Source of the DNA: Duganella dendranthematis
GTDB taxonomy: Bacteria > Pseudomonadota > Gammaproteobacteria > Burkholderiales > Burkholderiaceae_D
Assembly: GCF_012849375.1 (NCBI RefSeq)
Contig: NZ_CP051684.1
Coordinates: 2,232,001 to 2,296,000, forward strand
Direction of reading: 5' to 3'
DNA: 64,000 nt
In this document: one piece after another, positions 11,739-15,679 of the stretch
How the letters are laid out: each line of letters begins with the position of its first letter
Position numbering within the stretch: the stretch's first letter is position 1
The notes under the pieces: model-generated
Told to the model about the DNA's origin: nothing
Databases searched by the model: none
What the model saw: only the letters and a program-made list of their open reading frames with translations
Position numbers and translations under genes: made by a program

Positions 11739-13754
11739 TCAAATATCCAGCGGGTCGACTTCCAGCGACCACTTCACGCGGCTTTTCATCTCGCGCAGGG
11801 TCAGCATCCACTCTTTGAGGAAGGCTTGCAGCGCCGGCCGTGACGGCGACTCGACCAGCAACTGCGCGCGGTCCACGTTGTGCACCCGCGTCATGGTCAT
11901 CGGAATCGGATCGTTGATGGTGATACCCGGATGCTGCATGCAATCGCGCGCCATGGTCAGGAACTCGATCGCCGTGGCCAGTTCGCGCGCCTCGGCCCGC
12001 AGCAGCGCCTGAAACAGATACGGCGGCAACGCCGCCTGCTCGCGCTCCTCCAGCAAGGCCGAGGCGAAGTGGTCGTAATCGTGGTGCACCACCGCGCCGT
12101 ACAACGGATGCTGCGGATAACGGGTCTGGATCAGCACCTCGCTCGGAATGCCAGCCCGTCCGGCGCGGCCGGATACCTGCATCAGCTGCGCAAACAGCCG
12201 TTCACTGGCGCGGTAGTCCTGCGAAAACAGTGCCGTATCCGGATTCATGATGCCCACCAGCGTCAGGCGCTTGAAGTCATGCCCCTTGGCGACCATCTGC
12301 GTGCCGACCAGGATATCCACCTCGCCGCGATGCACGGTATCGAAGGCTTCCTGCGCGCTGCCCTTCTTGCGGGTGGAATCGGCGTCGATGCGCAGGATGC
12401 GCGCATCGGGGAACAGCGCCTGCAAACCCTCCTCCACGCGCTGCGTGCCGCGTCCCAGCGGCTGGATGTCGATATTGCCGCAGGTCGGGCAATGGCGCGG
12501 AATGCGCAGCTCCAGGCTGCAATGGTGGCAGCGCAGGCGATGCTCGGGACGATGCAGCACCATGAACGAGGTGCAGCGCGTGCATTCGCTGATCCAGCCG
12601 CACGATTCGCAGCAGATCACCGGCGCATAGCCACGGCGGTTGAGGAACAGCAGCGACTGCTCGCCGCGCTCAAGCCGCTGCCTGATGGCCGCCACCAGGT
12701 GCGAAGTCAGGCCGTCGTTCGGCTTGTCGCGCTCCATGTCGATCAGCTTGACGGTCGGCAGCACGGCATTCTGCACCGCCCGTTCGCGCAGCTCCAGCTT
12801 GCGATAGCGGCCGGACTGCGCGTGGTGCCAGCTTTCCAGCGATGGCGTGGCCGAACCCAGCACAATCGGGATCTGCAACTGCCAGGCCCTCCATACGGCC
12901 AGGTCGCGCGCCGAATAGCGCAAGCCTTCCTGCTGCTTATATGACGGATCGTGTTCCTCGTCGATGACGATCAGCTTCAGGTGCGGCAGCGACGACAAAA
13001 TCGCCAGCCGCGTGCCCAGCACGATGCGCGCCTTGCCTTGGTGCGCCGCCAGCCAGTGCAGCATGCGTTCGCCCTCGGACAGGCTGCTGTGCAGCGTGGC
13101 CAGCATCACGCCGGGGAAGCGCGCGCGGATATTGCCTTCCAGCTGGGGCGTCAGGTTGATTTCGGGCACCAGGATCAGGATCTGGCCGTCCGGCTCGCGT
13201 GCCAGCACTTGCGCGCAGGCTTGCAGGTAGACCTCGGTCTTGCCGCTGCCGGTCACGCCGTACAGCAGGGTCGGCTTGAAGCCCTGGGCGCCACCGATGG
13301 CGTCGGCGGCGAGCTGCTGCTGCGGATTGAGCACCGGCATGTTGGACGGCGTGGGATCGTGTGGGGTCTCCAGCTTGGCCAGCTTCTTCAACGCCCGGTC
13401 CAGCGCCACCGTGGTCAGCACGCGCAGGTTCTTGGGCAGGCCGGGCAGCGCGACCTCGCCCAGCGGCCGCTGGTAATAATCGGCGGCAAAGCCGGCCAGC
13501 GCCAGCCATTGGGCCGACAACGGCGCCAGCTGGGTGCGCACGGCCAGCGCATCCTTCAACTTTTCCACAGGCACATCGGTCTCATCGACCACACCGACGA
13601 TCAGGCCCACCACCTCGCGCCGCGCGAAGGACACCAGCGCCAGCTGACCCACCTGGGGCCGCTCGGCCGGATCGCACTGCCAGCGGTAGTCAAACACCGC
13701 GTTGAGCGGCGTATCAATAGCGATTTGCAGGTAGCAAGGGCGTGGATTATTCAT
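11739..13754 (-). CDS. priA: Primosomal replication protein N' (PriA helicase)
   Basis: A 671-residue PriA. The N-terminal 3' DNA-binding domain begins at NNPRPCYLQIAIDTPLN; Walker A is in LLYGVTGSGKTEVYLQ; the DEAH-type box reads IDEEHDPSYKQ. Two zinc sites follow in CCESCGWISECTRC and LRCHHCS...CPTCG. GSATPSLES and the motif VI region VSGRAGRAG are intact. PriA reloads the replisome at stalled forks. ATG 13754 is at the family start; the longer frame upstream has no similarity. The gene lies directly beside the DnaA-box-rich region. Confidence 0.95.
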   Translation of the reverse strand: MNNPRPCYLQIAIDTPLNAVFDYRWQCDPAERPQVGQLALVSFARREVVGLIVGVVDETDVPVEKLKDALAVRTQLAPLSAQWLALAGFAADYYQRPLGEVALPGLPKNLRVLTTVALDRALKKLAKLETPHDPTPSNMPVLNPQQQLAADAIGGAQGFKPTLLYGVTGSGKTEVYLQACAQVLAREPDGQILILVPEINLTPQLEGNIRARFPGVMLATLHSSLSEGERMLHWLAAHQGKARIVLGTRLAILSSLPHLKLIVIDEEHDPSYKQQEGLRYSARDLAVWRAWQLQIPIVLGSATPSLESWHHAQSGRYRKLELRERAVQNAVLPTVKLIDMERDKPNDGLTSHLVAAIRQRLERGEQSLLFLNRRGYAPVICCESCGWISECTRCTSFMVLHRPEHRLRCHHCSLELRIPRHCPTCGNIDIQPLGRGTQRVEEGLQALFPDARILRIDADSTRKKGSAQEAFDTVHRGEVDILVGTQMVAKGHDFKRLTLVGIMNPDTALFSQDYRASERLFAQLMQVSGRAGRAGIPSEVLIQTRYPQHPLYGAVVHHDYDHFASALLEEREQAALPPYLFQALLRAEARELATAIEFLTMARDCMQHPGITINDPIPMTMTRVHNVDRAQLLVESPSRPALQAFLKEWMLTLREMKSRVKWSLEVDPLDI

Positions 13755-13789
13755 GCTGCACCTTGCAAAAATATCGATGCTGTATGTAT

Positions 13790-13822
13790 CCACAGTTTCT
13801 GTGGATAACTTTGTGGACAATG
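13790..13822 (+). repeat. DnaA-box repeat module, copy 1
   Basis: A 33-base module beginning CCACAGTTT and containing an exact TGTGGATAA box plus the imperfect TGTGGACAA. It differs from the copy at 14214-14246 at only two positions (13799 and 13818). Confidence 0.85.
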
Positions 13823-14213
13823 GAATCTTAATCCCCGGAAAGCACTGACATTCAAGTTGGCATCTTCCAAAACCGGGTAAAAAATCAAAATTTTATCTCT
13901 TTAAAATCAATGACTTGGAAAATGCTTCCTAGGGAGCAGAAATTCGCCGTCGGAAACGGCCAGCTGTGCATAAGTGAAGTATTTAGGAGCTTTTTTTCGG
14001 GGAAATCAAGCACTTTTTTGCACCGTTTCGGCACTTCGCAGTGCACCAATCCGCCAAATTTTATCCTTATGCTCACACCAAGCTTTGCGGCTTGATAACA
14101 AGCTTGGCAAGGGTGTCATTTTTGCCTAAAAATCGTGCAACGCAACATGAATCTCAGGTCAAACAGCAATATTATGGCTAAGTCACGGTTTACTAAGTCA
14201 TTTTATTTCTTGT

Positions 14214-14246
14214 CCACAGTTTTTGTGGATAACTTTGTGGAAAATG
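14214..14246 (+). repeat. DnaA-box repeat module, copy 2
   Basis: The second copy of the 33-base module, 424 bases downstream in the same orientation. It carries an exact TGTGGATAA box at 14224 and a TGTGGAAAA near-match at 14236. Confidence 0.85.
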
Positions 14247-14436
14247 AAGAAATAAACTACTTGAAGCTTAGCCACAGTGTTTACGGCTTGCTAAACATTG
14301 CCGTCTGCACCACAAATTTTATCGCTTTAAATCAATGAGTTAACTCATCATCAAGGGCTAGCCAAAAAGCACTGCCTATTATTTCCGCAGCAAAAAAAAT
14401 TGTGCATAAGTCGGTCTAGTCAGAGCGCGCGCGCAG

Positions 14437-14472
14437 AATAAAAAAGGGCACGTTTCTTTCGAAACGTGCCCC
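14437..14472 (-). terminator. Rho-independent terminator of hemE
   Basis: An 11-bp perfect stem, GGGCACGTTTC (14446-14456) with GAAACGTGCCC (14461-14471), closed by four bases. Read on the minus strand it is followed by a T run (complement of the A run at 14440-14445), as expected after hemE. It also shields the DnaA-box region from hemE transcription. Confidence 0.9.
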
Positions 14473-14487
14473 TCTACACGATCGAAA

Positions 14488-15573
14488 TCAAGCCGAGCGT
14501 TGGGCCTTGCTATAGGTGTGTACCGCTTCCACCATGGCCGCCACGCTTTCCGGCGGCGTGAACTGCGAAATGCCGTGGCCCAGGTTGAACACGTGGCCGC
14601 TGCCGCTAACGCCCGGCGGACCGAAAGCGTCCAGCACCTTGTGGACTTCAGCGGTAATCTGGTCCGGGCTGGCGAACAGGATGGCCGGGTCCAGATTGCC
14701 TTGCAGCGCGACCTTGTGGCCGACCTTGTGGCGCGCCTGGGTCAGGTTGGCGGTCCAGTCCAGGCCCAGCGCGTCGGCGCCGATGTCGGCGATTTCCTCG
14801 ATCCAGTGACCGCCGCCCTTGGTGAACACGATGGCCGGAATCTTGACGCCATCCTTTTCACGCTTCAGCAGCGCCACCACCTGGCGCATGTATTTGAGCG
14901 AGAACTCCTGATAGGCACCATCGGCCAGCGCGCCGCCCCACGAGTCGAAGATCATCACAGCTTGCGCGCCGGCGTCGATCTGGGCGTTCAGGTACTCGGC
15001 CACCGCCTTGGCGTTGGTATCGAGGATAAAGCGCATCAGGTCCGGGCGGTTGTACAGCATCTTCTTGATGTTGTGGAACTCGCGCGAGCCTTCGCCCTCC
15101 ACCATATAGCAGGCCAGCGTCCACGGACTGCCGGAGAAGCCGATCAGCGGCACGCGGCCATTCAGCTCGGTGCGGATCTGGGTCACAGCCTTGAAGACAT
15201 AGTCCAGCGAACCCGGTTCCGGCTGGCGCAGGGCCAGGACATCGGCCTCGGTTTTCAGCGGACGCTCGAATTTCGGGCCCTCGCCTTCGACGAAATGCAG
15301 GCCCAGGCCCATCGCATCCGGCACCGTCAGGATGTCGGAGAACAGGATGGCGGCGTCCAGCGGGAAGCGGTCCAGCGGCTGGATCGTCACCTCGGTGGCG
15401 TAATCGGGATTGGTGGCCAGGCCCATAAAGGAACCGGCCTTGGCACGGGTGGCGCGGTATTCCGGCAAATACCTTCCGGCCTGGCGCATCAGCCACACAG
15501 GGGTGTAGGTGGTGGGCTGGCGCAACAACGCGCGCAGGAAGGTGTCATTCTTGAGCGGAGCAAATTGTGGCAT
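14488..15573 (-). CDS. hemE: Uroporphyrinogen decarboxylase
   Basis: A 361-residue HemE, which removes four carboxyl groups from uroporphyrinogen III to give coproporphyrinogen III in heme synthesis. Signature 1 is the N-terminal [16 protein letters not shown]. Substrate-pocket segments [12 protein letters not shown] and [16 protein letters not shown], and the IFDSWGGAL region, are all intact. ATG 15573 opens the conserved [10 protein letters not shown] terminus; the TTG nine bases upstream is less likely. Length is normal. It is divergent from the S9 peptidase gene and ends at a strong terminator next to the candidate origin. Confidence 0.95.
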
Positions 15574-15679
15574 GGAAGGCAATAGAGAACAATCAAGCCG
15601 CTATTATCGCATCCCACGCCATTTTGCGAATTTTGCTCTATCATGCGGAGCACCGCGCACTGACCTTTTTGGAGCTTTT

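Follow-up and report, generated by a model that had tools for sequence, protein, structure and literature searches.

The DNA analysed here, referred to as the window, comprises 64 kb (bases 2232001-2296000) of the single-contig chromosome of Duganella dendranthematis (6,532,782 bases, ~6.53 Mb; genome G000). It contains the genes priA and hemE in neighbouring positions on the minus strand (Table 1), and the HemE protein shares 98% identity with HemE of Duganella aquatilis. The gap between both genes harbours a DnaA-box element around position 2246100 of the chromosome, directly upstream of priA, which we call locus A. On the hemE side, the gap contains the intrinsic terminator described in the first-pass annotation, with a stem of 15 pairs followed by T-rich sequence. 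Because the terminator scan yielded one candidate versus a mean of 1.3 in shuffled sequences, the claim rests on the 15-pair stem. Screening the 64 kb window against Rfam gave no matches at gathering scores.

All four exact TTATNCACA DnaA boxes of the window are located within 13800-14409, in agreement with the four boxes noted earlier, while the four one-mismatch boxes of the earlier count increased to six in the range 13755-14436 (at 13786, 13812, 14067, 14210, 14236 and 14268). With up to one mismatch, the whole window contains 33 boxes, whereas shuffled sequences average 19.1 and do not exceed 30. Locus A also ranked highest in a 700-bp sliding score applied to 2.0 Mb of the chromosome (18, versus 16 for the next cluster), with the remaining 4.5 Mb covered through the list of exact boxes only. 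The duplicated module previously given as 33 bases was recovered as 34 nt with 94% identity, its copies at 13789 and 14213 being spaced by 424 bp, and the AT-rich repeat was confirmed as AAATTTTATCnCTTTAAA at 13888 and 14314, with a TTnAAATCAATGAnTT repeat at 13901 and 14326. Because two repeats beyond the 34-nt module recur at a spacing of 425-426 bp, the whole unit is duplicated rather than 33 bases alone. In each unit, box I faces boxes II and III, and the core they form is followed by an IHF consensus site at 118-119 bp and a distal TTATGCACA box at 178-190 bp. The exact IHF consensus occurs three times in the window, always inside locus A (shuffle mean 0.58; three sites were reached in 3 of 100 shuffles). 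The additional site of unit 1 at +96 has no counterpart at that offset in the hemE-priA gaps of relatives. No Fis consensus GNNYANNNNNTRNNC was found in 13701-14490.

Table 1. Features of the hemE-priA region (positions in the window) and of related loci on the chromosome of D. dendranthematis (chromosomal positions).
Feature	Position	Strand	Characteristics
Window positions
priA	11739..13754	-	TIGR00595, 563.6 bits, above cut-off; ATG 13752-13754
DARS-like core 1	13786..13820	+	box I (+) 13786, box II (-) 13800, box III (-) 13812
IHF consensus WATCAANNNNTTR	13883..13895	+	+96 from core 1
AT-rich repeat copy 1	13888..13905	+	repeat scan
IHF consensus	13905..13917	+	+118 from core 1
Distal DnaA box TTATGCACA	13965..13973	-	+178 from core 1
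Isolated one-mismatch DnaA box	14067..14075	+	box scan
DARS-like core 2	14210..14244	+	box I (+) 14210, box II (-) 14224, box III (-) 14236
One-mismatch DnaA box	14268..14276	+	box scan
AT-rich repeat copy 2	14314..14331	+	repeat scan
IHF consensus	14330..14342	+	+119 from core 2
Distal DnaA box TTATGCACA	14401..14409	-	+190 from core 2
Candidate hemE intrinsic terminator	14442..14475 (read 14475-14442)	-	15 pairs, then T-rich sequence
hemE	14488..15582	-	TIGR01464, 426.5 bits, above cut-off
Chromosomal positions
Locus B (candidate oriC)	2448845-2449013 and 2451067-2451234		inward TGTGGATAA...TTAT-CACA pair ~159 bp apart, twice
Locus E	4204187-4204999 (4.204 Mb)	opposite strand reading	array of loose DARS-like cores
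Locus F	6233772-6235220 (units 6.2338, 6.2350 Mb)		two units, +118 IHF offset as in locus A, TTATGCACA box

Both cores of locus A show the box positions +0/+14/+26 with box I opposed to boxes II and III, and an identical scan returned the same geometry, including the steps of 14 and 12 bp, for DARS1 and DARS2 of E. coli; box orientation and a common spacing of this kind are given as the definition of a DARS core in PMC5742627. A core pattern composed from the two E. coli cores, TATNCACNNNNNCTGTGGATANNNNTGTG, matches core 1 exactly and core 2 with 2 mismatches, occurs in the window only at locus A and was absent from 100 window shuffles at up to 3 mismatches. E. coli DARS1, located downstream of bioD, shares the geometry and an exact match to TATNCACNNNNNCTGTGGATANNNNTGTG with locus A, but contains a single core and lacks an exact IHF consensus in the scanned stretch. 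The similarity to E. coli DARS2 in the rppH-mutH gap goes further, since orientation and 14/12 spacing of the three-box core are accompanied by IHF or IHF-like sites ~90-120 bp beyond the core in non-coding DNA. The scanned DARS2 region contains no exact IHF consensus and four sites with one mismatch, two of which lie at +92 and +108 and are 3 bp apart. This fits the 3-bp gap between IBS1 and IBS2 reported in PMC4245941, where shifts by 5 or 10 bp reduce activity. Compared to +108 in DARS2, the IHF offset of +118 at locus A is about one helical turn further out, and locus A further differs by its two tandem units, its distal TTATGCACA box, its other neighbours and its place near the probable origin. 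DARS2 is described as being stimulated by IHF and Fis (PMC8682772, PMC5742627) and as requiring the Fis sites FBS2-3 in E. coli (PMC4245941). Because a Fis consensus is absent from locus A, we do not class it as a strict DARS2.

The element is conserved among relatives. Locus A DNA was matched in all 36 examined genomes of the genus (own genome included) and in 7 of 24 others. Counting matches anywhere in the genome, TATNCACNNNNNCTGTGGATANNNNTGTG was present at up to 1 mismatch in 88 of 100 related genomes, namely in 60/60 of the same genus (own included) and 28/40 of the others, while the reversed control gave 0/100. For a view of the gap itself, we used the best 80 hemE loci of 581 confirmed relatives, in 74 of which priA adjoins hemE; the six loci left out either reach contig ends (L135 and L162) or are without a PriA match (L153, L168, L173 and L175), and only L135 among them contains a core. 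At least one core with up to 3 mismatches was found in 62 of the 74 gaps, adding up to 89 cores, versus an average of 0.00 of 74 gaps in 20 mononucleotide shuffles; 56 gaps contain a core at up to 1 mismatch and 26 contain two or more cores. Scanning 300 bases downstream of each of the 89 cores yielded 68 exact IHF sites, all placed at +117, +118 or +119. The distal box TGTGCATAA (up to 1 mismatch) is present at 165-205 in 82 of the 89 units, mainly at 178, 188-191 and 197-200, these position classes being roughly one helical turn apart. The IHF consensus as such is found in 63/74 real gaps versus 3.2/74 on average in shuffled ones, and it is retained in 9 of the 12 gaps without a recognisable core. 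Outside of the hemE-priA gaps, no cores with up to 2 mismatches were detected in the 0.97 Mb of the 80 loci (using a shorter gap definition). Six loci from other families showed three cores inside the hemE-priA gap and three elsewhere, the core-like sites away from priA belonging to G040, G048 and G049. In the literature searched, which included few subscription papers, we found no report of a DARS between hemE and priA.

Judged by its sequence and conservation, locus A is a genuine locus of the DARS type, conserved and composed of DnaA boxes and IHF consensus sites. Beyond this, we consider it somewhat more probable than its alternatives combined that locus A acts as a tandem DARS2-like, IHF-dependent DnaA-reactivating locus. 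In the DARS mechanism, as described in PMC8682772 and PMC5742627, ADP-DnaA binds boxes I and II head to head, ADP leaves and apo-DnaA takes up ATP. At locus A, ADP-DnaA would likewise dock head-to-head on boxes I and II of each unit, and bending of the DNA by IHF would reshape the core complex, perhaps aided by the distal box; ADP would then be released and apo-DnaA would reload with ATP. The phased distal box may replace Fis in this process. Locus A would thereby help to time initiation at an oriC located elsewhere, most likely at locus B at 2.449-2.451 Mb. The first-pass annotation had named a DnaA-titration site as its fallback, which was close in kind, but the three-box geometry points more specifically to a DARS. 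The distance between loci A and B amounts to 6% of the half-chromosome, and this place of locus A near the probable origin differs from the positions of DARS1 and DARS2 in E. coli. The missing Fis consensus, the 12 of 74 gaps devoid of a recognisable core, the lack of an exact IHF consensus in E. coli DARS2 itself and the box-IHF-box layout, which resembles datA too, also weigh against the DARS2-like reading. DARS have been described for E. coli and Vibrio cholerae (PMC6090056) as well as for related gamma-proteobacteria (PMC4245941), and PMC4245941 restricts conservation of the DARS2 core to gamma-proteobacteria that are related to E. coli, which argues against its presence here. The review PMC5742627 refers to E. 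coli-proximal beta- or gamma-proteobacteria.

The main rival to IHF-driven reactivation is a datA-like function, in which boxes of one direction flank an IHF bend and either promote hydrolysis of DnaA-bound ATP or simply titrate DnaA near the origin. Boxes II, III and TTATGCACA indeed face one way around the IHF site at locus A, and unit 1, if read on the minus strand, shows boxes at 0, 153 and 165, IHF at 56 and, at 179, a box of opposed orientation. E. coli datA is similarly arranged, its boxes lying at 0 and 162 with IHF at 65 between them, and it has an opposed box at 174 and one more box at -67. Moreover, E. coli datA is located near oriC according to PMC5742627, as would be locus A if locus B is the origin. 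However, the pattern kept in relatives includes box I, opposed and spaced exactly as in DARS, whereas the datA boxes called essential in PMC5742627 all point one way. In addition, the scanned E. coli datA region contains no TATNCACNNNNNCTGTGGATANNNNTGTG match with up to 2 mismatches, and the unit of locus A recurs at 6.23 Mb, a position remote from the origin candidates. We regard a datA-like function as rather improbable.

In a further alternative, which corresponds to the main proposal of the first-pass annotation, DnaA would oligomerise on the boxes of locus A as the chromosomal oriC and melt the AT-rich repeats. If the origin were located here, the DARS2-like reading would lose much ground. 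The top rank of the box cluster in the 2.0 Mb scored and the presence of AT-rich repeats fit an oriC, and box cluster, AT-rich repeats and IHF consensus together resemble an oriC of the E. coli type; however, an inward pair like R1-R4 is lacking at locus A and present at locus B. A betaproteobacterial box group away from dnaA is also described for CHR1 of Cupriavidus metallidurans, where it lies at the GC-skew transition ~90 kb from dnaA (PMC2864759). The D. dendranthematis chromosome has a weak GC skew. Windows sampled from 5.70 Mb through zero to ~2.39 Mb gave mainly negative values and those between 2.39 and 5.66 Mb mainly positive ones; the values near zero around locus A (2.17-2.29 Mb) would be compatible with an origin there. 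The minimum sought in the contiguous range of 2.01-2.63 Mb was found in another place, at 2402516, which is 156 kb from locus A, and the corresponding distances are 196 kb in G022 and 146 kb in G031, where the minimum is about midway between loci A and B. The usual marker genes are similarly remote, with dnaA (2040290) at 205 kb and the exact parS sites (2462916 and 2462977), adjacent to mnmG (2463100) and the following atp genes, at 217 kb from locus A. Placing the origin exactly at the skew minimum was also considered and rejected, since no listed box cluster coincides with 2402516 and synteny does not place the minima of G000 and G031 at corresponding sites.

Polarity markers gave a divided picture. 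With the origin set at locus A, 21 KOPS were oriented correctly and 4 wrongly in G000, versus 20/5 for locus B; the counts were 19/6 for A versus 14/11 for B in G022 and 17/16 for A versus 25/8 for B in G031, the best split of which lies midway. Thus, one genome favours A, one favours B, and G000 leans slightly towards A. The best KOPS split and the GC-skew minimum are ~130-220 kb apart in both G000 and G022. Coding on the plus strand has a mean share of 0.33 between 2.09 and 2.29 Mb and of 0.60 between 2.29 and 2.45 Mb, the means of the two arms being 0.42 and 0.59. The switch near 2.29 Mb is 44 kb from locus A and 160 kb from locus B, which would rather suit an origin at locus A. The direction of the rRNA operons brackets the origin of G000 to 2.018-3.230 Mb only. 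The basal unwinding system is described as 3'-GAT-5' repeats beside a DnaA box (PMC8287927). No tandem TAG of this DnaA-trio-like kind, (TAG)2+, was found beside a box at locus A of G000, G022 and G031 by a strict test that also misses E. coli oriC and scores one positive at locus F. Further arguments against an origin at locus A are the recurrence of its unit at 6.23 Mb, far from all origin candidates, and its separation from the origin markers in G039, a genome from another family of the order (single contig of 3.63 Mb). In G039, the core lies in the hemE-priA gap at ~142.8 kb, and dnaA (1281 kb), mnmG (1576 kb) and parS (1719 kb) are 1.1-1.6 Mb away from it; the element goes with hemE-priA there, not with these putative origin markers. 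dnaA, mnmG and the only exact parS of G039 are up to 440 kb apart from each other, with parS 143 kb from mnmG, and G039 is the exception among eight relatives with an exact parS, as parS adjoins mnmG in the other seven. No exact parS was found in G020. Taking skew minimum, dnaA and parS together, locus A is probably not the oriC it was proposed to be, and we rate that proposal as unlikely, slightly below the datA-like function.

The origin of this chromosome is instead likely to be locus B, as we infer from its surroundings and box architecture. Locus B is 12-14 kb from parS-mnmG and lies between glmS and glmU (2430-2437 kb), which run left, and mnmG-rsmG-atp, which run right. Its two copies in G000 are split by ~2 kb that read by eye like a GGDEF-type gene. 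Doubled inward pairs at 11-13 kb from mnmG were found in at least four genomes listed (G019, G022, G027 and G031). TGTGGATAA and CCTGTGGATAT...TTAT-CACAG are common to all six B units found in G000, G022 and G031. The left flanks of these units have 33-53% GC, and five of the six carry a tandem TAG (two or more) upstream of a box. The surroundings of locus B are the region of G000 that is densest in exact DnaA boxes: 21 of the 73 exact boxes of the genome (4 of its own) lie within 100 kb of B, versus 4 within 100 kb of A, all of them its own. The 200 kb from 2345000 to 2545000 contain 22 of the 73, similar to the box-rich origin region that PMC12371093 describes for E. coli. Three same-strand box pairs 12 bp apart lie by glmU (2435757-2436000), with no box I partner at up to 1 mismatch. 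The case for locus B as origin is tempered by the KOPS counts, which are split among genomes, by the strand switch nearer to A and by the midway skew minimum of G031.

It appears very unlikely that locus A is a priA promoter region under DnaA and IHF control, tying replication restart to the DnaA level: its place directly upstream of priA, the occurrence of the element in the hemE-priA gap in several families and five promoter-like matches at the locus (three in the direction of priA; 1.3 expected on both strands) would suit this, but the unit at 6.23 Mb adjoins other genes, and G040, G048 and G049 contain core-like sites off priA.

In the 2.0 Mb of G000 scanned, cores with up to 2 mismatches occur only at loci A, E and F. 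Measured from locus B, locus F is 84% of the way along the half-chromosome and remote from all origin candidates. Locus E is found at 54% of the arm; if up to 3 mismatches are allowed, it contains six looser cores, four of which are accompanied, at +51 on the other strand, by an IHF-like site with no more than 1 mismatch. Taken further, these loci may represent a Fis-free, IHF-dependent DnaA switch of the Burkholderiales, in which a DARS core and a datA-like box-IHF-box arm are joined in a single rigid, helically phased unit. Such a unit would be present here at three loci: in doubled form next to priA, close to the probable origin, again in doubled form at 84% of the arm, and at 54% as a variant array. 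We put this forward tentatively and with considerable doubt. Because DARS core and datA-like arm would be combined in one unit, the same DNA could either recharge or discharge DnaA, depending on IHF. A doubled DARS conserved across many Burkholderiales would provide a second lineage for testing replication timing, and an IHF site without an adjoining Fis consensus would separate the roles of IHF and Fis. The case of locus A would also illustrate that the strongest DnaA-box cluster of a genome need not be its origin. Inspected by eye, the two units of locus F, 1.25 kb apart, flank an ORF resembling a response regulator, and locus E lies between an xseA-like ORF and a TolQ/ExbB-like ORF.
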